The notes under the pieces: generated by a model
Told to the model about the DNA's origin: nothing
Databases searched by the model: none
What the model saw: only the letters and a program-made list of their open reading frames with translations
Shown here: piece by piece, positions 11,632 through 23,084 of the stretch
How the letters are laid out: each line of letters starts with the position of its first letter
Numbering within the stretch: the stretch's first letter is position 1
Program-made: the position numbers and the translations under genes
Assembly: GCA_024280855.1 (NCBI GenBank)
Contig: JAJRPG010000023.1
Coordinates: forward strand, 1-64,000
Reading direction: 5' to 3'
Origin: Planctomycetota bacterium
GTDB lineage: Bacteria > Planctomycetota > Phycisphaerae > UBA1845
DNA: 64,000 nt

Positions 11632-12699
11632 TCATGTTGTGATTGGTGAGCGAGTATTGTGAAGTTGGGTACAAAGGTCGGCTGAGGCGGCGGATGGGTC
11701 TGCAGCGCCAATGACACAACTACAGACACAAATGCAGGCGCGGGGGGCACCGGCTGAGATGTCGCTGAGATTGGCTGAGTTTATGCCGCCGATGGCGACC
11801 AGGGGGAGCGCGGTTTGTTGGGCGGCATGGGCGAGTAGCGATGGGCCTGGGATGTGGTCCTGGGGTTTTGTGGTTGTAGCGAACATGGGGCCTAGGGCGA
11901 TGTAGTCTGGCGCATCTTGGATGGCTCGTTCAACTTGTTGGGGTGTGTGGGTACTTATTCCTACGATCATGTGAGCGGGGAGCAAGCGTCGGGCGTCGGC
12001 GATGGTCATGTCGTCCTGGCCTAGATGGACGCCGTGGGCGTTTGAGAGGCGGGCGATGTCTGGTCTATCGTTCATGATGAAGAGGGCGTTGTTTTCACGA
12101 CAGAGAGATGCCAACCTCCTGGCACGGATGGTAAGTTCACGATCGGAAAGATTCTTTTCTCTTAGTTGAATGACGTCTGCGCCGCCCTTGATGGCGGCTT
12201 GGGCTGTTTTGTACCAGTCCTTTTTGCACAAGGATTCGGTGATAAGCACATATAAGCGGGCATGGCTAAATCGCTCGTGGGCGGCGTGGATTTTGTGCAG
12301 TCGCCGCTCTATGTCGTAGACCTTGTAGCGAATGGTTTCTACCTGGCGAGCGCATTCGCTGGCGATGGGTTTACTGTACTCTTCGACAGCTCTAAGCGCC
12401 TGGGCGGCACGTTGGCCATTGGCTTGGGCGACGTTCCAGGTGCCGCTGCGATTGTATTCTGAAGAAGTTTCGATGGTTTGGCCTATATCGCCGACAGAGT
12501 CTCGATGGTTAATCATAGCTGAGCGCAGTATTTGGGGGACGCTGGCGGTGAGGTCGTGTCGAAGTTGTTTGATGGATTCGGATAAGCTGCGGTCTTCAAG
12601 CTGAAATCTGGCGTATTCCTCCCAGACACGCAGTGCTTCGCCTGCGCGATTAACATTTGCGTCGAGGATTCTTAGGATAGTTGGGTCGAACTCATTCAT
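11632..12699 (-). CDS. thiE: Thiamine phosphate synthase with N-terminal ThiD2 domain
   Basis: The 355-residue protein joins two parts. Residues 1-135 resemble the ThiD2 domain (PF17792), with the opening ILDANVNRAGEALRVWEEYARF pattern and a later ANGQRAAQALRAVEEYSK segment. Residues about 148-345 are a TIM-barrel thiamine phosphate synthase. This part has QLREKN, the Mg/diphosphate segment FMNDRPDIA, the HLGQDD motif, and the phosphate loop GPMFATTTK. It should couple HMP diphosphate with the thiazole phosphate in the cytoplasm. The ThiD2 domain has been proposed to supply HMP-phosphate kinase activity, but its catalytic role is less certain. The C-terminal phosphate-binding strand is unusual, reading ACICVCSCVIG with three cysteines. 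The gene is divergent from the CPBP protease gene with an 83-base spacer and no visible TPP riboswitch. Confidence 0.9.
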   Translation of the reverse strand: MNEFDPTILRILDANVNRAGEALRVWEEYARFQLEDRSLSESIKQLRHDLTASVPQILRSAMINHRDSVGDIGQTIETSSEYNRSGTWNVAQANGQRAAQALRAVEEYSKPIASECARQVETIRYKVYDIERRLHKIHAAHERFSHARLYVLITESLCKKDWYKTAQAAIKGGADVIQLREKNLSDRELTIRARRLASLCRENNALFIMNDRPDIARLSNAHGVHLGQDDMTIADARRLLPAHMIVGISTHTPQQVERAIQDAPDYIALGPMFATTTKPQDHIPGPSLLAHAAQQTALPLVAIGGINSANLSDISAGAPRACICVCSCVIGAADPSAASADLCTQLHNTRSPITT

Positions 12700-12782
12700 G
12701 CGGCATGATACTTTACTGGCAAGTATGATAATTTCAAATTTCGATCTTGCTTATGATGCGATTCCTGCCAGTATAGGAGCCT

Positions 12783-13505
12783 ATGGCTAAGCAAAGTAAT
12801 GATAGTTCGGGAGCATCCGACCGTGGGGTGCTTGCTCGTCCTTTGGATGCGCTGGTTTTTCTTATTCCGCTGATGGTTTTCTATCAGGTGGTGGCGATGA
12901 TGAGGCCCTCAGGATTGGGCGGACGTAGTGACCATGTCATCGCGTTTGATCTGATTTTGCGGGTGTTGGAGCTTTTTGGTCCGTTTGGGGCTTGGGCGCC
13001 GCCGGCGATGGTTATTGTTATTTTGCTGGCTACCCATTCGGCGTCGGGGATGCCGTGGTCTATAAAATTTCGACGGGTGGGTTGGCTATATATCGAATCG
13101 CTGCTTCTCGCATTGCCGCTGTTGGCTTTGAATTGGGCTGTGCCGCTGTCCGGCGTGTTGGGAGTTTCGACGGGTACGATCGATAAGCTTGCGCTGGGCG
13201 TTGGAGCTGGGGTGTATGAGGAGATGGTGTTTCGGCTCATTTTTATTACGGGCATGATTATGATTGGCGTCGATATACTTCGCCAGAATCAGGCGGGGGT
13301 CGCGGTGGCTGCGGTGATGATTTCGGCTTTGGTGTTCGCGGCGCATCACTATCAACCTATCGGCAGTGATCCCTTTCATATGGGGAGCTTCGCGTTTCGC
13401 TCGTTGGCGGGCTTGTACCTGGCTGGGGTGTTTTGGTATCGAGGGTATGGGTCAGCGGCAGGTTGTCATGCGGCGTACAATGTGGCGCTGGTTACGATGT
13501 TTTAG
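12783..13505 (+). CDS. CPBP family intramembrane glutamic endopeptidase
   Basis: The 240-residue integral membrane protein shows about seven hydrophobic segments. It carries the CPBP/Rce1-type active-site motifs: EEMVFR with Glu146, Glu147 and Arg151, a FAAHHY motif with His188 and His189, and an HAAYN motif near residue 231. This family includes CAAX prenyl proteases and bacterial proteins linked to bacteriocin immunity or membrane protein processing. The substrate is unknown here. The gene faces away from thiE and ends near the 26-base hairpin repeat at 13572. It appears to be a single-gene unit. Confidence 0.88.
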   Translation: MAKQSNDSSGASDRGVLARPLDALVFLIPLMVFYQVVAMMRPSGLGGRSDHVIAFDLILRVLELFGPFGAWAPPAMVIVILLATHSASGMPWSIKFRRVGWLYIESLLLALPLLALNWAVPLSGVLGVSTGTIDKLALGVGAGVYEEMVFRLIFITGMIMIGVDILRQNQAGVAVAAVMISALVFAAHHYQPIGSDPFHMGSFAFRSLAGLYLAGVFWYRGYGSAAGCHAAYNVALVTMF

Positions 13506-13571
13506 TATTAGTATGATTGTCGCGATTTGGTGGAATGTTATTACTATTGGGCGCAAAATGAGTTCGTAGCT

Positions 13572-13597
13572 CCGCGCAAGCTGAAGCATGCGGCTCG
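13572..13597 (+). repeat. Family 1 hairpin repeat, copy 1
   Basis: A 26-base element with the core GCTGAAGC and the end GCGGCTCG lies between two convergent genes. It folds into a short stem around a TGAA loop, with an internal mismatch. Its right edge abuts the stop codon of the minus-strand gene ending at 13598. Other copies are at 23427, 33173 and, inverted, at 50395. It could act as a two-way terminator or processing site, but no T-tract is present. Confidence 0.75.
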
Positions 13598-14488
13598 TTA
13601 TGGGGCTTGGTTTGCTTTGTGAAAACTGCTTGGCCAATTGCGGTCCCAATAGGCGCGTCGCTCAATTTGTACAAGTGAACCTTTCGCTCCGCCGGTTCTG
13701 TATCTTAATAATCGATACGGGGCTTTAGCTTCCACTACAAAACTCGTTGGTTGACCTGACCATTGGACGTCGATGCGGACGCCGCTGATGGTTCCGAGGG
13801 GCGTGGTGACTTGGCTTTTCGCGCCGATGGTCATGGTGGCTGAGATTGCTTTTGGCTCGACGCGGTGGGTGGAGCGCATTGGCTCTAACACGTTCAGCGT
13901 TCTTGGTTGGCCTGAAGATGCGACGTCTCTAGCGATTAATAGTAAGGATTCGTATGGGACAGCGTCTGTTTTAATCGACGAAGTCGTATCGCCTTCGCTG
14001 GGGAAGTAAGAAAAGTTTTTCACGGTTAATTCGTCGTTTGACCATCGTAAGTGTTTGAACGTTGTGCCGCACCATTCTTGCGACGAGGTTACCATTTTGA
14101 ATGGAGATAGATCGTTTCGATCAATAAATATAGTGGTTTGATAGCGATAGTTGTAGTTTTCGGTGGGGATTTCTTCGACCATGTTAACCTTGAACACCTG
14201 AACGGAGTCGCTGGCGATGAGGTCTGTTTTTACGCCGGATTGTGGGTGCATCCATTGGCGGTTTATGATGATTGTACGGGTGTATGAGCGGGGCTTGCCA
14301 TACAGGGTGTCCACGGCGCGGTAGTAAGACATTTCGGCTAGGCCATCATCCCAGGTGTCCAGTGAGCCAAGGCTTGGGCTGCTAGTTTTGTTTTCCTGTG
14401 CCATTGAAGTGGCAGTGGAGTATAGGCTGGTGAGTCCGCTTATGAAAATAAGACAGACGGTCGTGCGTGTTTTAGATGAGGTAGTCAT
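13598..14488 (-). CDS. Secreted protein of unknown function (EWCG motif)
   Basis: The 296-residue product begins with a signal peptide (hydrophobic about 9-30, ending SMAQ). The mature part is beta-rich and contains the sequence TSSQEWCGTTFKHL. This recurs in a family of secreted proteins that are sometimes misnamed as Maf homologues in databases; that is from memory. DUF3108-like outer-membrane or periplasmic proteins look similar in overall plan. The start lies 3 bases after the stop of the FlgI-like lipoprotein gene, so the two are probably co-transcribed and may act together at the cell envelope. No enzymatic motif is visible and I do not assign a function. Confidence 0.6.
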   Translation of the reverse strand: MTTSSKTRTTVCLIFISGLTSLYSTATSMAQENKTSSPSLGSLDTWDDGLAEMSYYRAVDTLYGKPRSYTRTIIINRQWMHPQSGVKTDLIASDSVQVFKVNMVEEIPTENYNYRYQTTIFIDRNDLSPFKMVTSSQEWCGTTFKHLRWSNDELTVKNFSYFPSEGDTTSSIKTDAVPYESLLLIARDVASSGQPRTLNVLEPMRSTHRVEPKAISATMTIGAKSQVTTPLGTISGVRIDVQWSGQPTSFVVEAKAPYRLLRYRTGGAKGSLVQIERRAYWDRNWPSSFHKANQAP

Positions 14489-14491
14489 ACT

Positions 14492-16318
14492 TTATAACTC
14501 CGATTCTGGTCGACCTGTCGGTCGAGATGGTCCAAACAGTTCTGCTATGTTGGGTTGTTCCCACATGAGTTTAGATTGAATTGCGCCATCTGCGCATAAA
14601 TGATATATGGCGCGAACTACGGTACTGTAATCAAGCCCCAGGCCGGTGATTTTATTATGAGCGCCGACGCCTGCTGGTGATCCCATGAGTTGGATGAGTT
14701 TTTCCAGATCGCGTGATGCTGTGACAGGCGGAGAGACTCGCCCGGTAGCTGGTATGCGTCGAAGTAGGGTCAGATCGATGTCATTTTCCAGGGCGTTAAT
14801 GGTAATGTTGCCATCGGGGGACCGGTAGAAAATTGGCGGGTGGCATTGCGGTTTGTCGCCAAATAGAACAATTTTTCTTGATCGTGTTCGTTTTGCGTAG
14901 ATGAAAGTTGAACGGGCACTGGGGATGTGGTCCAGCACGAAATTGCCTGAGCCAATGTGCTTTCTTGTGATGGCGGTGTCCGGGCGATCTGACAAAGATT
15001 CGTATGCGGCGATTTGTATGCGTGGGTCTTCATCATTCAGCAGGCGACGTAATGCGACTCGAGCGACGGCTATGTCCTTGGCTTTGCCTAGTGCGCGGAT
15101 GGCTTTGAAACGATTGGGAGCGAGCGCGTCTTGTGCGATTAGCGCAATGCTATCAGCGGCGATGTGGTCGCCAAGTCGCAGGCCAGCCAGGGCGGCGTAA
15201 AAACGAACGTGTGGTTTTGCGTGTCCATAAAGACCGCTGAGTACGCTAATGGCAGGCTGGCCAATGCTTTCCATGGCTAGAGAAATCAGTTCGTGCGGTG
15301 CGTTGTTATTGACAAGCTCTTGTCCTAGTTGTTGTGTACGGATGGCTACAAAGCGTGGGTCTGTGGATATATATGTCGCACGCACCAGCGATAGGAAGTG
15401 GCTTGTTTCATCTGCAAATTTTCGCGGGATAGTTAGCTTAATAAACGATGGTGAAATCGCCTTGGCTGTGGGTGGGTCTGCTGGGAATTTGGCGTTGATG
15501 CGGTCTTGGATTTTTCGTGCCCAAAGGTAGGACGGCGATGATAGCACCAGGCGCAGTTCGCGTGGGACCAGGGCTTTGCCGCCGCCGAGTACGGTTCCCT
15601 GTAAAGGGCTGATTTTCGTGGCGGCATCGCCTCCGGCGAATGGGTTTAGGAATAGTGGTCCGCTAGCGCGGGCTAGTACTTTGCCTGAGATAGTTTTGCC
15701 TGAAGCTTGTCGAAAAATGTTCAAATTTGTCGTTGCTAACAGGCCACCCATGAGCGATTTCGTTTGCGTTCCGGGCATCGCGGTGACGGAAATGTCGAAA
15801 GGTTGTCCCATGGAGTTTGCGACAGTGACTGTCCCTTGAACGACGACGACGGCGGTGTTGGGTGAGTCGATGAGTTGTTCGGGTGTTGTCAGTTTTTGGC
15901 CTATTTCTGCGTGAACGCGAAATCTTTGTTTGTATAGCATTTCCACGAGCTTCTCGCGGACACGTTTGGGGCATTCGCGCGAACCGTTTTCGCCGAGTCC
16001 TAAGACCAATCCAATGCCGCGTACTCGGATGCCGCCTGTTCCGTCGAAGAATGCGAGAGCGCCGATGGTGTCTTTGATGGCTGCGGAATTTGCCCAGCGA
16101 CCCGCTTGCGGTGCTACGCCGAGGTCAACGGGTTTATCGGAAACTTTTTCCCAGATGAACGGGCTACAACCGAAGGTGGAAAGCATTAGCGCGACGGTTA
16201 GGGCTATGAGTGTGTAACGGGGATGGACCGCAGGTATAAAGCCGTGTTTCGTTCTAAACCGTTTTAACATATCGTGCCCCGTGGATGGCATGGTTTCGTG
16301 CGTGTCCTCAATTATCAA
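14492..16318 (-). CDS. FlgI-like lipoprotein with HEAT-like repeats
   Basis: The 608-residue product has an N-terminal signal with a lipobox (STFGC, Cys51), so it is probably an envelope lipoprotein. Residues about 80-320 resemble the flagellar P-ring protein FlgI: VRGIGLVLGLGENGS, a PNTAVVVVQGTV segment, and ISVTAMPGTQTKSLMGGLL. Residues about 340-450 look like HEAT-type helical repeats. The C-terminal 130 residues are unassigned. No other flagellar gene is present, and a fused HEAT region is not part of classical FlgI. It may form a ring- or pore-associated envelope structure not tied to a flagellum. An internal ATG at 16270 with a GGGG ribosome site is an alternative start that keeps the lipobox. 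The gene lies 3 bases upstream of the secreted protein gene ending at 13598. Confidence 0.75.
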   Translation of the reverse strand: MIIEDTHETMPSTGHDMLKRFRTKHGFIPAVHPRYTLIALTVALMLSTFGCSPFIWEKVSDKPVDLGVAPQAGRWANSAAIKDTIGALAFFDGTGGIRVRGIGLVLGLGENGSRECPKRVREKLVEMLYKQRFRVHAEIGQKLTTPEQLIDSPNTAVVVVQGTVTVANSMGQPFDISVTAMPGTQTKSLMGGLLATTNLNIFRQASGKTISGKVLARASGPLFLNPFAGGDAATKISPLQGTVLGGGKALVPRELRLVLSSPSYLWARKIQDRINAKFPADPPTAKAISPSFIKLTIPRKFADETSHFLSLVRATYISTDPRFVAIRTQQLGQELVNNNAPHELISLAMESIGQPAISVLSGLYGHAKPHVRFYAALAGLRLGDHIAADSIALIAQDALAPNRFKAIRALGKAKDIAVARVALRRLLNDEDPRIQIAAYESLSDRPDTAITRKHIGSGNFVLDHIPSARSTFIYAKRTRSRKIVLFGDKPQCHPPIFYRSPDGNITINALENDIDLTLLRRIPATGRVSPPVTASRDLEKLIQLMGSPAGVGAHNKITGLGLDYSTVVRAIYHLCADGAIQSKLMWEQPNIAELFGPSRPTGRPESEL

Positions 16319-16447
16319 GGACTGCCAACGCTGTATGAGGATACTAACATAGCTAGGCTATCGTCAAGCTGTGGTGGTTTTGTATGGGGTAAGACGGACT
16401 CTGTGGCTTCAAAATTAAGTGTGTGGGAGCGCATTGTTTTGTAATAT

Positions 16448-16489
16448 CCTTCCCCCACCCTTCGAGAGTACCCGAAGAATGGGACACCC
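16448..16489 (+). repeat. Family 2 repeat, HP1 module
   Basis: This copy of hairpin module HP1 has the arms CCTTCCCCCACCC and GAATGGGACACCC around a stem TTCGAG-AGTA-CCCGAA. It lies just downstream of the mqnP-like gene, which ends at 16504 on the minus strand. It is followed by the FlgI-like gene, whose start is at 16318. Confidence 0.8.
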
Positions 16490-16503
16490 GCTTGCTAATG
16501 TTT

Positions 16504-17418
16504 TTATGGCATTGTCCCGCGTGCGAGTAAAATGTCTCCGATAGCTGCTGTGGCGAAAACGATGCTGACGACGCCGTTCATAGTGAAAAAGGCCAGGTTT
16601 ACCCGGCTATAGTCTCCGGGGTGAACGATGGCGTTTTCGATGGTTAGGAGTAACGCGGCGCATACCAAGCCGAAAATGTACAACGTACCCATGTGTGCGG
16701 TTAGGCCTACGCCGATGAGGGCTAACACGACGATGACGTGGGCGAGGCGAGCGATTCGAAGTGCGGTGGTTGGGCCTAGTCGGGAGGGCAAGCTATGGAG
16801 ATTTTCTTGTTGGTCGATGTCAATGTCCTGGCAGGCGTAGATGATGTCGAACCCGGCTATCCAGCAAGCGACGGCGAGGATGAGCAGCCCGGTTGATAGG
16901 CCGATTGACGCCGGGTGAACTGCTAGCCAAGCTGCGCCGGGGGATAGGGCGATAGCAAAGCCCAGGTAAAAGTGAGACCACTTGGTAAAGCGTTTGGTGA
17001 GCGAGTATCCGCATAACCAAAGTAGAACGGGAAGCGATAGGATGATTGGCCAAGGGTTGTGGTAAAAATGTTCGAAGCCCAGGCAGCCCAGGATAAAAAA
17101 TATGGCTGAGATGGTTAGCATCGTCCAGCCCATTGTTGGGGATAACCGGCCTGCGGGTATGGGACGCGAGGCTGTTCGGGGGTTTCGGGCGTCAATATTG
17201 GCGTCAACGATTCGGTTGAAAGTCATGGCTACGCTGCGTGCGGCTATCATGCACACGACGACAAGGCCTAGCTGTCCCCCATGAGGGATGCCGCGACCCT
17301 CGATGTTTCTTCCTGCTAAGAATGCGCCGAGCAATGCGAATGGGAGCGCGAAGACGGAGTGAGATAGCTTGACCATGTCCGCCCAGATGCGCATGGAATT
17401 TACGGCTGCGTTAACCAC
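16504..17418 (-). CDS. mqnP: UbiA-family prenyltransferase, probable MqnP
   Basis: The 304-residue membrane protein has about eight hydrophobic helices and the two Asp-rich motifs of UbiA prenyltransferases. These are NRIVDANIDARNPRTASR (about 68-85) and YACQDIDIDQQENLHS (about 190-205), which bind the prenyl diphosphate through Mg2+. The DARNPRTA pattern and the linked UbiX-like and MenG genes fit MqnP of the futalosine menaquinone route better than 4-hydroxybenzoate polyprenyltransferase. It would attach the polyprenyl chain to the naphthoate ring in the inner membrane. The GTG start overlaps the ubiX stop by 8 bases, showing translational coupling. An ATG at 17394 is an alternative start. 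Confidence 0.85.
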   Translation of the reverse strand: MVNAAVNSMRIWADMVKLSHSVFALPFALLGAFLAGRNIEGRGIPHGGQLGLVVVCMIAARSVAMTFNRIVDANIDARNPRTASRPIPAGRLSPTMGWTMLTISAIFFILGCLGFEHFYHNPWPIILSLPVLLWLCGYSLTKRFTKWSHFYLGFAIALSPGAAWLAVHPASIGLSTGLLILAVACWIAGFDIIYACQDIDIDQQENLHSLPSRLGPTTALRIARLAHVIVVLALIGVGLTAHMGTLYIFGLVCAALLLTIENAIVHPGDYSRVNLAFFTMNGVVSIVFATAAIGDILLARGTMP

Positions 17419-18049
17419 TAATGGATTCTTTCATGTTTAGTGAAGAAGATTCTAACTGCGTCGCCCATCGGGTGTTTAAGTTGTGAGGTACGGCTACGAG
17501 GTCTAAGAGTTTGCCGACGAGGAAATCGACCAGGTCGTCTATGGTTTTGGGCATCATATAAAAGCCTGGTGACGCGGGGCAGATGATGGCTCCGGCTTGA
17601 CTTAGGCGTAGTGCGTTTTGCAAATCGATTTGCCCCATGGGCATTTCGCGTGGTACGACGATGAGACGTCGCGATTCTTTTAGGGTGACAGCGGCTGCCC
17701 TGTCGAGGAGGTTGCTGGCGAGGCCTGTTGCCACTGCGGCTAAGGTATTGCTGCTGCAGGGGCAGATAATCATGGCGTCTACGGGGAAGCTTCCGCTGGC
17801 GATTTTTGAGCCTACGTCGCGGTATTTGTGTATGGTCAGGTTATCCGAATCTTGGCCTAGCAAGCCCGTGGCTGAGATGTTGGTGATGGCTAATTCGTCG
17901 TGTAGTAAACGCTTGCCGTACTCGGTGATGACGAGGTGGACGTGTGCGCCGCCGGTGATGAGGCATTGGGTAAGTCTGCGGGCGTATGCCGCGCCGCTGG
18001 CACCTGTGATGCCCACGATGATTTGTTTTTGATTGGGGCGGTTGTTCAT
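17411..18049 (-). CDS. ubiX: UbiX-type flavin prenyltransferase
   Basis: The 212-residue cytoplasmic protein carries the N-terminal flavin loop GITGASGAAYARRL (about 13-26). It also has a CPCSSNTLAAVATG motif (near 97-110) and a later VVPREMP segment. These are hallmarks of UbiX/Pad1 flavin prenyltransferases, which make the prenylated FMN cofactor for UbiD-type decarboxylases. In this operon the partner decarboxylase would be the MqnL-like step, though no ubiD or mqnL gene lies in the window. The start overlaps the end of the upstream TPR gene by 4 bases, and the stop overlaps mqnP. Confidence 0.93.
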   Translation of the reverse strand: MNNRPNQKQIIVGITGASGAAYARRLTQCLITGGAHVHLVITEYGKRLLHDELAITNISATGLLGQDSDNLTIHKYRDVGSKIASGSFPVDAMIICPCSSNTLAAVATGLASNLLDRAAAVTLKESRRLIVVPREMPMGQIDLQNALRLSQAGAIICPASPGFYMMPKTIDDLVDFLVGKLLDLVAVPHNLNTRWATQLESSSLNMKESISG

Positions 18050-19962
18050 GGTCGAGCCTGGGTGAATTGGGTTGAGATTGGTCTTGGCATGTATCGCTGA
18101 GCTTCCTTAGCCCATATGGAATTTGGATATTCTCTGTAAAGTCGGGCGATGGACTCGTCACTTTTTCTTAATTGGTCAGCTTGTTTGTAGGCTACGCCGA
18201 GTCGAAATAGTGTTTCTGCGACGATGTCACGGTTACTATATTTTTCAAGGCACGTTTCAAGGCCGGTTATTTTTAGTTGCGAATTCGTCTCGCATTTGGC
18301 TATTTCCAGTGCGATGTTGTCTTGAATTTGAGAGTTCGGATACGCGGCGTCTAAACGTCGCAATTGGTCCACATAGGTCGTACTGCGTGGTAGTACGTCG
18401 AGCAGGCCAAACCAAACGGGGGTTTGGTCTCGACTGGGGCCGCTGATGGGGTCGTAGTTGTATATGGGGTCACGATTGTAGGCTAATAATTCGTAAAGTT
18501 GGGTGGCTTCAATGATGATAGTGTCGCCAGATACATTCAAACTTACTTCGGTAGATTCTGGTGCGAAGACAACGCGCAGTGCGCTTTGGTTGAGATTGGA
18601 TGGTGTTTGGCCGTCGGGTGGATGAAATTCACTATCGAGTTTGAAGAGAACTTGAAGCAACTGGTCCCGTGCGCGGTCTACGTCGCCACGGCGTGCGTCC
18701 AGCTTGGCTAATTGCAATAAGGCTACTGCGGAAAGAATCGAGTCTGGATAATTCTTCGCGAGCAACCGCCAACTATCGCGCGATGCGTCGTTAGGAAAAT
18801 CATCAAAGAAACGAATCCACTTGGTTCGCTTGAACTCGGCGGGGTCTACACGGCGGTCGTATGCTCTAGCTTTCAGGTATAACACATTGCCCGCGTAGGG
18901 ACTTAATGGGAAGTATTTTAAGAACCAATCGCAACTTACTATGACCTCCGATTGATGGCGGACGAGAATGGTTTCTTCTCGTGGGATATTCGTAGCTAAG
19001 CCGAATAGCCAGCGTTGTTCGACCATTTCCTGCATGGACTCGACGCTTTGTCCGCGAATGGAGCGAAGGGCCATCGCTTGACGCGTGGCTTGTTCCAGGC
19101 CTTGAGAGGCATCAATGTCTGCAAAGGCTGCACGTTCCTGAGAGGCGAGTAGGCGATAATACAATTCATCTCGCCCCACATAATACTCGAATAGCCCGAC
19201 AGGTAGTCCTAGCATGATAGCTAAGAGCGGTGTGACTGCGCCGGGTCTGTAGTCTACTAATTTAGCAATGAGTAAGGCAATAAAGAATAAGGTGGTGGAG
19301 GCTACGATAGCTAAGACCCAAGGTGCGATGAACTTGATGCGGTCGGCTGGGTTGATTTGCAGGGCGGCGTCGTCGAAGCTGCCCTGCCATGCTAGTGACA
19401 GATAGATGACAGCGGGGACCAATCCCCATAGCGCGGAAACGAATCTAAATCTCGATCGAAACGGGCGTACTGAAGATAGCACGCAGGACGAGATGAGTGT
19501 GAGTCCCAACCAGGGCATGACGGCGAAGAATGAGACGACGGCGACGAAGGGTAAGCTAAACCAAAATCCGTACAAAATGCTTATCAAAATGGGGATTGAA
19601 ATCATGGCGGCCATGAGGAGTCCGATGATGGGAATCTGCATGGGAATGTGTTGCACGCTGATTGGTTCTACCAGCAGCGAGCCTAGCGAGACGGGGGTGT
19701 CCGACCAGAAGCGAAAAGTTTGGACAAAGTCGTCCCAGTAGGTAGCTGAGTTTGGTGCGAAAAGTTCTCCGCTGCGTAGCCAGAAGGCGAAATTTGTGAC
19801 GCCGGCAAAGAGTATTAAATTAATGGTTAATAGAACGAAGGCCCGCGTTCGGTATTTTGATCCTGACCGTGACCACACGTCTTTTAAGTCGAGGCTATCG
19901 TGTGATGAGAGTTCTTGCGTTTTGGCTGGTGTGGATGTTGAGGATGTAGCGCGTTGATTCAT
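18046..19962 (-). CDS. TPR-containing multi-pass membrane protein
   Basis: The 638-residue protein has an N-terminal cytoplasmic stretch, then four to six transmembrane helices within about residues 40-265. A long soluble region of helical repeats follows. The last 100 residues contain clear tetratricopeptide patterns such as AETLFRLGVAYKQADQL. It sits inside the menaquinone operon between menG (7-base gap) and ubiX (4-base overlap), so it is translated with them. It is not a known menaquinone enzyme. It may help assemble a membrane complex or may simply be co-transcribed. I do not assign a function. Confidence 0.7.
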   Translation of the reverse strand: MNQRATSSTSTPAKTQELSSHDSLDLKDVWSRSGSKYRTRAFVLLTINLILFAGVTNFAFWLRSGELFAPNSATYWDDFVQTFRFWSDTPVSLGSLLVEPISVQHIPMQIPIIGLLMAAMISIPILISILYGFWFSLPFVAVVSFFAVMPWLGLTLISSCVLSSVRPFRSRFRFVSALWGLVPAVIYLSLAWQGSFDDAALQINPADRIKFIAPWVLAIVASTTLFFIALLIAKLVDYRPGAVTPLLAIMLGLPVGLFEYYVGRDELYYRLLASQERAAFADIDASQGLEQATRQAMALRSIRGQSVESMQEMVEQRWLFGLATNIPREETILVRHQSEVIVSCDWFLKYFPLSPYAGNVLYLKARAYDRRVDPAEFKRTKWIRFFDDFPNDASRDSWRLLAKNYPDSILSAVALLQLAKLDARRGDVDRARDQLLQVLFKLDSEFHPPDGQTPSNLNQSALRVVFAPESTEVSLNVSGDTIIIEATQLYELLAYNRDPIYNYDPISGPSRDQTPVWFGLLDVLPRSTTYVDQLRRLDAAYPNSQIQDNIALEIAKCETNSQLKITGLETCLEKYSNRDIVAETLFRLGVAYKQADQLRKSDESIARLYREYPNSIWAKEAQRYMPRPISTQFTQARP

Positions 19963-19969
19963 ATCTAAG

Positions 19970-20716
19970 CTATCGGAGTTTTGCTACATAAATGGACACG
20001 ACGCCCATCGTGAGGCTCTTGGCTTGGCTGTCGGAAAAACCGGCTGCGTCTAAACGATTGACCATTTCTTGAGCGTTTAAGAATGAGACGACCGAGCGAG
20101 GGAGATAATGATAGGCGCCGGAGCGGTCTTGAGAAATCCAGGAGGCTCCGATGGGCATGATGTAGTTGGCGTAGAGTTCATAAGCCCGGCGGAACAGGGG
20201 GTTCGTGGGCCGGGTGAATTCCAGGATGATCGCCCGACCGCCGGGGCGTAGTACGCGGGCCATCTCTTTTAGGCCGTCGTCGAGGTTGACGAAGTTTCTC
20301 ACGCCGAATGCACACGACACGATTGAGAAGGAATTATCTGCGAAGGGTAAGTGTAAGGCGTCTGACTCTACCCAGCGTAAGCCTTGGTCGCCCCGGCCTG
20401 ATGCGCGAGATAACATTTCGTGGGCGAAGTCTGTGCCGATGATTGAATTTGGTGATGCCTTAGCGAAGGCCCGTGCGAAATCGCCCGTGCCGCAGGCGAT
20501 GTCTAGCACGTCGTCGTCCGGCTGAACCTGGGCTAATTGGACCGCTCGCTTTCGCCAGTAAGTATCTCGCCCGCCGCTGAATAGTTTGTTGACCAGTTCG
20601 TAACGTGGGGCGATTTCGTTGAACATGCCGCGCACACGCTGGGCTTTGTCAGCTACCTTATGCGGGCTGCGGAGTAGCGGCTTGGACCAGGCTGTTTTGT
20701 CGGCGGCTGATGGCAT
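19970..20716 (-). CDS. menG: Demethylmenaquinone methyltransferase (MenG/UbiE)
   Basis: The 248-residue product is a class I SAM-dependent methyltransferase of the UbiE/MenG family. It has a VRGMFNEIAPRYELVNKL N-terminal signature, the SAM-binding motif VLDIACGTGDFA, and the later GVRNF and MARVLRPGGRAIILEF motifs. It performs the final C-methylation of demethylmenaquinone. I placed the start at the ATG at 20716, because the extension to 20824 is Pro-rich and unlike the family. It is the first gene of the operon menG, TPR membrane protein, ubiX, mqnP. Confidence 0.92.
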   Translation of the reverse strand: MPSAADKTAWSKPLLRSPHKVADKAQRVRGMFNEIAPRYELVNKLFSGGRDTYWRKRAVQLAQVQPDDDVLDIACGTGDFARAFAKASPNSIIGTDFAHEMLSRASGRGDQGLRWVESDALHLPFADNSFSIVSCAFGVRNFVNLDDGLKEMARVLRPGGRAIILEFTRPTNPLFRRAYELYANYIMPIGASWISQDRSGAYHYLPRSVVSFLNAQEMVNRLDAAGFSDSQAKSLTMGVVSIYVAKLR

Positions 20717-21050
20717 GGTGGGGATTGTACGGCAAAAGGGGGATGGTCGGCTATAGGCGGTTGTTTTTGGGGGGAAAGCGGGGGGATGTTGTGATCTGGT
20801 GTCCCATTTTTTGGGGATTCGCAAAGGGTGGGGGACGGATGGTTATTGGGGATGTTTGTAAGTATTCATGACGACATCCACTATTATAGTAGACTCTCTG
20901 GGACTTTTTCGTCATAATAGATACCAGTGGAAGCAACTTTCTCTGCTGCCGAACGATTTGTAGACAAATTTCGATCTGGATGTGTTGGCGGAGACGCCGA
21001 GTAGTGTGCGACTTACATAACTATTATGCGTCAAAGCAGATAGGATATCC
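20717..21050. other. Divergent intergenic region before the PHP-ATPase gene
   Basis: These 334 bases separate menG (minus) from the PHP-ATPase gene (plus). The part next to the PHP-ATPase gene is visibly more AT-rich than the flanks. I could not assign a promoter with confidence. No RNA gene or repeat family member is seen. Confidence 0.4.
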
Positions 21051-23084
21051 ATGAAGAAGATAGACCTCCACATTCATACGGTTGCAACAGTCAGCGATGC
21101 GGATTTCAGTTTCGATCTCCACACTATGAAGAGATATGTCACTGAAGCAGCTTTAGATGCCATCGCCATTACAAATCACAACGTATTCGATGGCAACCAA
21201 TTCGCCGAAATTGAGGATGCGCTAGACGTTGTAGTCTTTCCAGGAATAGAGGTCTCCCTAGACTGTGGGCATGTTCTGGTGATCAGTGACAAAGCCAATC
21301 TGGACGTTTTCAAGGAACAAGCTGAAAAAGTCAATGCGAAAATTACTATCGCTGAAGACCGCATTTCATTTGATGATTTTTTTGACATATTCCATAACCT
21401 AAAAGAATATTTGGTCATCCCTCATTATGACAAGAATCCGGCGATCAAGGGTGAAGACCTAGAGCGTATAAAAGAGTATGTTCCGTGTGGCGAGGTGAAT
21501 AGTGCAAAGAAATTTATCCGGGCCATCAAGGGCGTGACGAGGCTTACGCCAGTTTTGTTCAGCGACGTTAGGATTTCCGCCGAATTGGAATCGCTTCCTA
21601 CGAGACAAACCTTTGTTGATTGTGGCGACTTGTCGTTGGGCGCCCTGAAGGAATGCCTGCGGGACAAGGGGAAAGTTGCGCTATCTAAGAATAACGGGAA
21701 CGAACTATTCCCAATATTTGATAACGGCCAGCAGTTGTCTACGGGGTTGAATATTTTGCTCGGCGAGAGATCGTCAGGAAAGACGTTTACTTTAAATAAA
21801 ATCAATGCTAATCCATCTCACGGCCATGTGAAGTACATTAAGCAGTTCTCATTGGTCCAGCAAGAAGATGCCGCGTATGAACGTGAATACAGCAAGAAGC
21901 TCAAGAGAGATCAGAGCCAGTTTATCGAGGAGTATTTAGCCGGGTTCAAGAATGTTCTGAATGATGTGATGAATGTTGATTTGCGGGTAGATGAGCGAGA
22001 GGTAGCTGATTACATCCGCAGCCTTATTGAGTCTGCGGAGGAGGTTGATAGGCGGGATGCCTTCTCAAATGCCGCGCTCTTTGGTGAGTCCGAATTTCCA
22101 ATCAGTGATGACATAGGCTTGAAAGAACTGATTGATTCAATTCGGCATTTAATTGAAAATGGTGAGTACCAAGCAATAATTGTCAAACATATTGAAATCC
22201 AATCGCTGAAGCAACTCGCAGTGGAATTGATCGAACTGCTTAGGGAAAAAGCCTTGGAAAGAAAGAAGAAGGATTTCGTAAATGTTTTGGTGGGAAACAT
22301 CAGGGAAATCCTAGGGAGACATACGTCAGCGGTTCAAGTTAAGGATGTAGACCTATACAGGGTGATCCTCAACGAGAAGAAGGTTGAGAGATTCACGGAG
22401 ATTGTGAAGCATTTACAAGAAAACGCGACCATCTCAGAGGAATCCATCCAAGGGTTTCGCGTCGTTGCTACAAAGGGGCCATTTGCCGGTGCTGGAGGGA
22501 TCAAGTTAGCAAGTGGAGTTAAAACGGCATTTGGAGAGTCCTTTAAGCATTACGAGCATCCATATAATTATTTGCTGACGCTGTTTGCTAATGAAAGCTT
22601 GACTCAGTCAGAGTATTACAGATTGTTTGTGAATATAACCTACAGAATTCTGAATAAAGACGGATACGTGGTGTCTGGTGGCGAGCGATCCGAGTTCAGG
22701 CTGCTACAGGAAATCAATGACGCACAAGATTACGACATGTTACTGATTGATGAACCAGAGTCTTCCTTCGATAATATGTTCCTTCATAGTGCTGTCAATC
22801 AGATCATTAGAGAGATTTCGGAGACAATGCCGGTGGTTGTGGTTACACACAACAGCACAGTCGGAGCTTCAGTTGGGGCCGACTATTTACTCTATGCAAG
22901 TAAAGAGATTGAAGGGGGCAAGGTGGCATACAAATTGTTTTCCGGCTATCCGACTGACCTAAGTCTTCATTCGCCGGACGGCAAAACGATTAGCAATTAT
23001 GAGATTACGCTGAATTCACTTGAAGCGGGTTGCGATACCTACCTTGATAGGAGACGAAAATATGAAGTTATTGAAGATAGATAA
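21051..23084 (+). CDS. PHP-domain plus ABC-type ATPase (TrlF-like)
   Basis: The 677-residue product fuses a PHP phosphoesterase domain with an SMC/ABC-class ATPase. The PHP part (about 1-225) has the metal motif LHIHT (His7, His9), an AITNHN segment near 40-45, FPGIEVS, and IPHYD. The ATPase part has Walker A GERSSGKT (about 236-244), an ABC-signature-like SGGERS (about 542-547), Walker B LLIDEPESS (about 564-572) and a switch histidine in VVTHNS (about 598-603). Helical, probably coiled-coil, sequence lies between the Walker A and the signature. This plan matches proteins that databases call TrlF-like, from memory. It suggests an ATP-controlled phosphoesterase or nuclease, perhaps in defence or nucleic-acid repair. 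No Toprim or HNH domain is present. Codon use is more AT-rich than that of the neighbours, hinting at transfer. It overlaps its small partner by 23 bases. Confidence 0.75.
   Translation: MKKIDLHIHTVATVSDADFSFDLHTMKRYVTEAALDAIAITNHNVFDGNQFAEIEDALDVVVFPGIEVSLDCGHVLVISDKANLDVFKEQAEKVNAKITIAEDRISFDDFFDIFHNLKEYLVIPHYDKNPAIKGEDLERIKEYVPCGEVNSAKKFIRAIKGVTRLTPVLFSDVRISAELESLPTRQTFVDCGDLSLGALKECLRDKGKVALSKNNGNELFPIFDNGQQLSTGLNILLGERSSGKTFTLNKINANPSHGHVKYIKQFSLVQQEDAAYEREYSKKLKRDQSQFIEEYLAGFKNVLNDVMNVDLRVDEREVADYIRSLIESAEEVDRRDAFSNAALFGESEFPISDDIGLKELIDSIRHLIENGEYQAIIVKHIEIQSLKQLAVELIELLREKALERKKKDFVNVLVGNIREILGRHTSAVQVKDVDLYRVILNEKKVERFTEIVKHLQENATISEESIQGFRVVATKGPFAGAGGIKLASGVKTAFGESFKHYEHPYNYLLTLFANESLTQSEYYRLFVNITYRILNKDGYVVSGGERSEFRLLQEINDAQDYDMLLIDEPESSFDNMFLHSAVNQIIREISETMPVVVVTHNSTVGASVGADYLLYASKEIEGGKVAYKLFSGYPTDLSLHSPDGKTISNYEITLNSLEAGCDTYLDRRRKYEVIEDR

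Follow-up and report, generated by a model that had tools for sequence, protein, structure and literature searches.

The window, i.e. the whole stretch of 64,000 nucleotides analysed here, carries at positions 14492–16318 an open reading frame (ORF) encoded on the minus strand, with 608 codons counted from a TTG start; the plus-strand reading of the same interval contains stops throughout. An in-frame ATG at position 16270 appears to be a likelier start than the TTG, and the resulting form of 592 amino acids is used below to number the residues of the fold parts, the structural model and the insert. Domain searches of the predicted protein revealed a Pfam FlgI match at residues 88–321 (E 1e-20, 74.4 bits versus a cut-off of 25.3, covering positions 5–229 of the 343-position profile), as well as a HEAT_2 match at residues 394–447 (E 2.1e-7, 31.5 bits versus a cut-off of 27.7). 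With the NCBIfam FlgI model NF003676 the protein, hereafter FlgI-HEAT, scored only 63 bits and did not reach the cut-off of 300. The first-pass annotation had seen a lipobox, a FlgI region and HEAT repeats in this one ORF, and the combination is real, chance being excluded by the presence of homologues in 147 of the 150 class genomes. A scan for promoters and terminators around the gene gave 4 promoter-like sites versus a mean of 3.0 in shuffled sequences, and 3 terminator-like sites versus 4.6.

A gap of three bases, confirmed here, separates the gene from a downstream ORF at positions 13598–14488 of the minus strand, which encodes a protein of 296 amino acids with an N-terminal hydrophobic stretch; domain searches assigned it to no family above the cut-off. 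No flagellar domain was found by domain search in the seven neighbouring proteins (positions 11632–20824). Genes for a UbiA-type prenyltransferase, a UbiX-like flavoprotein, a TPR membrane protein and a UbiE methyltransferase stand in a row at positions 16504–20824 of the minus strand, an order that is likewise present at the loci of two named close relatives of FlgI-HEAT, which come from a Phycisphaerae MAG (L003, 80% identity) and from a Planctomycetota MAG (L004, 72%) and point to Phycisphaerae as the probable class. The scan of named genomes, which used short exact peptide patterns, found these two close relatives and no others. A single protein encoded at positions 11632–12699 of the minus strand contains both ThiD2 and thiamine-phosphate synthase (TMP-TENI) domains, and the 677-amino-acid product of the plus-strand ORF at positions 21051–23084 presumably begins as a PHP-type phosphoesterase (DLHIHT…ITNHN) and ends in an ATPase-like part.

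To determine the architecture of FlgI-HEAT, a structural model of the monomer was built with AlphaFold2 from 44 homologues (mean pLDDT 85.5, pTM 0.81). The four top matches of the whole model in a Foldseek search of the PDB were all FlgI, with E values from 2.9e-13 to 4.1e-13. The first part of the FlgI fold, comprising the upper inner-ring and outer-ring domains, corresponds to residues 67–302 (positions 15365–16072, minus strand) and is supported by Pfam, Foldseek, hhalign (probability 99.8%, E 3.7e-28) and VIA-align, which placed these residues on FlgI 20–245 with Z of 15.7–17.1 and rmsd of 8.2–8.7 over 196–204 residues; the high rmsd over this length indicates tilted domains. The two N-terminal P-ring domains are thus retained (best Foldseek E 2.9e-13; a VIA match of 200 residues with Z 17.1 and rmsd 8.7). 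They are followed by a HEAT-repeat domain at residues about 303–433 (positions 14972–15364, minus strand), recognised by HEAT_2, by the helices of the model and by matches to alphaRep/HEAT structures in the PDB on the level of both sequence and fold.

The remaining C-terminal domain (residues 434–571, positions 14558–14971 of the minus strand) corresponds, with a match of moderate strength, to the lower inner-ring domain of FlgI. Residues 434–578 folded alone gave a pLDDT of 93.3, and the four best of 990 chains compared by VIA-align were all FlgI 247–365 (rmsd 2.9–3.6 over 76–86 residues), with Z of 5.4–5.6 against 3.9 for the next best, in a range (Z below 8) where a match may reflect just a common arrangement. 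The last helices of the FlgI-HEAT and FlgI families were aligned by hhalign with E 3.9e-4, at a probability of only 35–36%. A profile built from the tails of canonical FlgI proteins matched 10 of the 59 family tails versus 3 of 1180 shuffled sequences at E ≤ 0.05, with the best match (L113) reaching E 2.2e-6. In one relative (L108), the FlgI profile aligns over positions 23–252, skips about 155 residues of the protein and resumes at positions 261–362 (E 0.0018); the whole-length profile recognises both FlgI parts in no more than 5 of the 59 proteins. Used by itself, the C-terminal domain gave no Foldseek match at E ≤ 0.001 and no FlgI among the best 50 matches listed, and a profile search of the PDB with it did not find FlgI (best E 0.089). 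The Salmonella FlgI structures (PF02119; 7CBL, 7BGL, 7NVG, 8Z5N) share a common fold with FlgI-HEAT over both halves, FlgI 20–245 and 247–365. Taken together, the model and the alignments describe FlgI-HEAT as a complete three-domain FlgI fold split by a HEAT insert of about 130 residues. The HEAT repeats, which had been placed after the FlgI region in the first-pass annotation, are indeed present, but they lie inside the FlgI fold rather than C-terminal to the whole of it. The insert enters at mature FlgI residue about 226–228, adjoining the border between the outer-ring domain (160–230) and the lower inner-ring domain (231–346) as delimited in PMC8298488.

A signal peptide with a lipobox (STFGC) is encoded at positions 16166–16270 of the minus strand, ahead of the FlgI region as previously noted, and its cysteine is codon 35 of the 592-residue form (positions 16166–16168). 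The lipobox of the window protein itself is of the loose type. Of the 59 relatives, 56 carry a lipobox, which is strict in 27 and loose in 29, with a few of the loose ones doubtful (e.g., L110 and L117), and two of the three relatives lacking it are ORFs truncated at the start; the G34-C35 column is near-invariant across 44 aligned rows. Among 16 canonical FlgI sequences, two have the strict motif. The lipobox thus predicts that FlgI-HEAT is exported and lipid-anchored in the periplasm, probably in the outer membrane. FlgI is a non-lipidated periplasmic protein, and FlgH is the lipoprotein of the flagellar LP ring. FlgI-HEAT therefore resembles FlgI in its periplasmic export and conserved G-x-G-[LIV]-V core but differs from it in the lipobox and the HEAT insert near the junction of the outer-ring and lower inner-ring domains; it resembles FlgH (PF02107) as a lipoprotein of the same envelope region, while lacking any FlgH match in the domain search.

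The three class genomes without a homologue are G016, G058 and G098; since G016 is 96% complete, FlgI-HEAT is not strictly universal in the class. Beyond the class, with up to four candidates scored per genome, the long form was found in families f47, f88, f97 and f68 with a family profile and an L109 query, and in pieces in family f54; the L109 query, under the same limit of four candidates, detected it in at least 15 genomes of f47, at least three of f88 and at least one of f97. Outside the phylum, the Pfam model found FlgI in only E. coli, Caulobacter and Thermotoga among 14 control genomes.

On a phylogenetic tree of 75 sequences, the 59 FlgI-HEAT proteins are separated from 16 canonical FlgI proteins, including that of E. 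coli, with a support of 100/100, and their identity to E. coli FlgI is 19–25%. As judged from these sequences, FlgI-HEAT is a separate old paralogue of canonical FlgI. The pocket that contacts FlgH has become more polar: a hydrophobic residue is found at I18 in 0 of 59 FlgI-HEAT versus 10 of 16 canonical proteins, at M46 in 12 of 59 versus 15 of 16, at L50 in 7 of 59 versus 10 of 16, and at M104 in 7 of 59 versus 10 of 16, while L103 remains mostly (43/59) and L22 wholly (59/59) hydrophobic in the FlgI-HEAT family. The best explanation of the changes at four of the six positions is that the FlgH-binding surface was lost. The rod-facing lysines Lys63 and Lys95 of mature FlgI (Lys82 and Lys114 in E. 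coli numbering, an offset of 19 residues) are retained in 7 and 8 of 59 FlgI-HEAT proteins versus 8 and 10 of 16 canonical ones, respectively, both positions being variable among canonical FlgI as well. In the rod-facing P-ring loop of the HEAT family, a proline aligned with E. coli residue 54 is conserved in 53 of 59 proteins, and it is preceded by cysteine in 26 of 59.

Other flagellar genes were sought in the source genome, and matches to FlgI, FlgH, FlgA and FliM were all located on contigs other than that of the window, in line with the earlier remark that the window has no other flagellar gene. A flagellar cluster on one of them (C43) encodes FlgF/G-like rod proteins, FlgA, FlgH and a canonical FlgI of its own, together with a rod-binding protein, FlgN, FlgK and a flagellin-domain protein. 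Across the class, a FlgI-family match was present in all 150 genomes and FlgH in 105; the 45 FlgH-less genomes are exactly those with a single weak FlgI match, which is of the HEAT type. FliM and a strong FlgA match are missing as well from 43 of these 45, the exceptions being G127, which has FlgA and FliM, and G082, which has a weak FliM. Of the 43 genomes, 33 are at least 90% complete and three consist of a single contig (G018, G063 and G069). Two kinds of flagellar gene sets are distinguishable within the class: 30 genomes (families f14, f15, f18, f20 and f22) have FlgI matches of 327–424 bits and weak or no FliM, and the remaining flagellar genomes have FlgI matches of at most 260 bits and a strong FliM; these look like two flagellar lineages within one class.

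The presence of the paralogue in all 45 FlgH-less genomes and the non-hydrophobic residues at four of six pocket positions make a part in the basal body very unlikely for FlgI-HEAT. A flagellar cluster does exist elsewhere in the genome, but with a canonical FlgI, FlgH and FlgA of its own, and a basal-body role of FlgI-HEAT was rejected. Unlike FlgI, FlgI-HEAT has no flagellar neighbours and is kept where there is no flagellum; the idea that a P-ring homologue now serves outside the flagellum is supported.

The 296-residue protein encoded downstream had been proposed as the partner of FlgI-HEAT, and the two are probably co-transcribed in the window. It recurs, however, in only 3 of 23 loci compared (the window, L003 and L004), and was rejected as a conserved partner; the recurrent neighbour is smc instead. 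Neighbourhoods were compared for 20 loci of the class and 18 further loci, picked to span different families. Of these 38, 27 have an SMC gene as the immediate downstream neighbour in the same orientation, at a gap of −4 to 256 bp (14 of 22 loci within the class, 13 of 16 beyond it), and SMC_N and hinge domains were confirmed in all six downstream proteins scanned. When all ORFs in the stretches were clustered by BLAST as a control, SMC was found at 26 loci and any other shared neighbour at five at most. Of the 11 neighbourhoods without an adjacent smc, at least two are interrupted by the end of a contig (L121 and L126). In the window genome, smc is located on a different contig (C109), away from the FlgI-HEAT gene, the pair having been lost in the window's family.

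The position of smc immediately 3′ of the gene in many members makes coordinated expression of FlgI-HEAT with this chromosome segregation gene likely. In the rnc-smc-ftsY operon of Gram-positive bacteria, smc likewise stands beside a gene that serves the envelope or export and whose product has no known contact with SMC; here, in contrast, the gene paired with smc lies immediately upstream of it and encodes an exported lipoprotein with the FlgI fold. Since smc is known to share operons with genes of non-interacting products, the gene pair does not imply contact between FlgI-HEAT and SMC, which a protein outside the cytoplasm could not reach directly.

P-ring proteins are flagellar bushings, forming a 26-fold ring around the rod. 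The reading we favour, with moderate confidence, is that FlgI-HEAT is a lineage-wide, non-flagellar lipoprotein paralogue of the P-ring protein, which forms a periplasmic collar with a HEAT arm docking a partner and performs a housekeeping function in the envelope. The homology, the insertion, the lipobox, the distribution, the independence from flagella and the smc gene pair are observed; the membrane, the ring, the docking of a partner and a link to the cell cycle we infer rather than compute. The exported protein would be lipid-anchored on the periplasmic side, probably of the outer membrane. That the P-ring fold is kept in full suggests that a collar is formed, most likely by P-ring-like assembly at the peptidoglycan and outer membrane, and the loss of FlgH contacts together with the weakening of rod contacts would fit a different axis or none. 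FlgA is the P-ring chaperone; a strong FlgA match is missing wherever FlgH is missing, except in G127, so that assembly of a FlgI-HEAT ring would have to proceed without FlgA. The HEAT domains could project from the collar as arms, a natural docking site for a partner. Being kept without a flagellum and often adjoining smc, FlgI-HEAT probably builds a non-flagellar envelope structure with a function unrelated to swimming, possibly tied to cell-cycle-dependent envelope work.

Alternatively, FlgI-HEAT could be a ring-less lipoprotein scaffold, e.g., an outer-membrane adaptor or chaperone, in which the FlgI fold is a monomeric peptidoglycan-facing module and the HEAT repeats are the working part. 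The low identity to E. coli FlgI, the replacement of P-ring loop residues by the conserved proline and the loss of both the FlgH pocket and FlgA would agree with such a role, which we regard as possible though doubtful, because the whole three-domain fold is retained, including a C-terminal inner-ring part that would be superfluous for a mere anchor.

It is unlikely, in our estimation, that a secretin pore (type II secretion or type IV pilus) uses FlgI-HEAT as its collar or as a pilotin-like accessory, with the P-ring fold as a periplasmic bushing. PMC8298488 likens the outer-ring domain of FlgI to the N3 domain of secretins and the peptidoglycan-binding domain of MotY, and secretins are encoded in all 150 class genomes; with FlgI-HEAT near-universal too, this co-occurrence is uninformative, and no secretin or pilus gene recurs beside FlgI-HEAT at the compared loci. 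Many of the secretin domains are located in stop-to-stop frames of 3,000–6,000 codons (e.g., 6169 on G044:C18 and 5018 on G125:C15), and 17 of the 22 family f8 genomes possess just one secretin, which is divergent (E about 1e-24 to 1e-27).

As a ring-fold lipoprotein that is planctomycete-restricted as far as searched, FlgI-HEAT would also be a candidate component of crateriform pores, described in PMC5394234 as enigmatic outer-membrane complexes in touch with the inner membrane; this is distinctly improbable, since the protein occurs in 147 of 150 genomes that are probably Phycisphaerae, whose isolates showed no crateriform structures according to PMC7783415. A second P ring within the basal body, suggested by the Pfam name of the domain and by FlgH in the source genome and 105 class genomes, is extremely improbable given the canonical FlgI in the flagellar cluster, the missing hydrophobic FlgH contacts and the persistence of the paralogue without any flagellar gene tested.

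Searches of the open-access literature brought up no description of a planctomycete FlgI that contains HEAT repeats or works outside the flagellum; P-ring genes noted in a planctomycete were read as flagellar in PMC1586193. A near-universal, flagellum-independent paralogue throughout one class, with members in families of one or more further classes, would mean a second, housekeeping envelope job for the P-ring fold, and it provides a concrete, testable gene in a group of bacteria with poorly understood division and envelope complexes. One could further hypothesise, although we consider it quite unlikely, a planctomycete envelope ring in which a HEAT-armed P-ring protein expressed with SMC links chromosome segregation to envelope remodelling or division. 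Through the gene pair with smc, such a connection of the envelope with chromosome segregation becomes directly testable.
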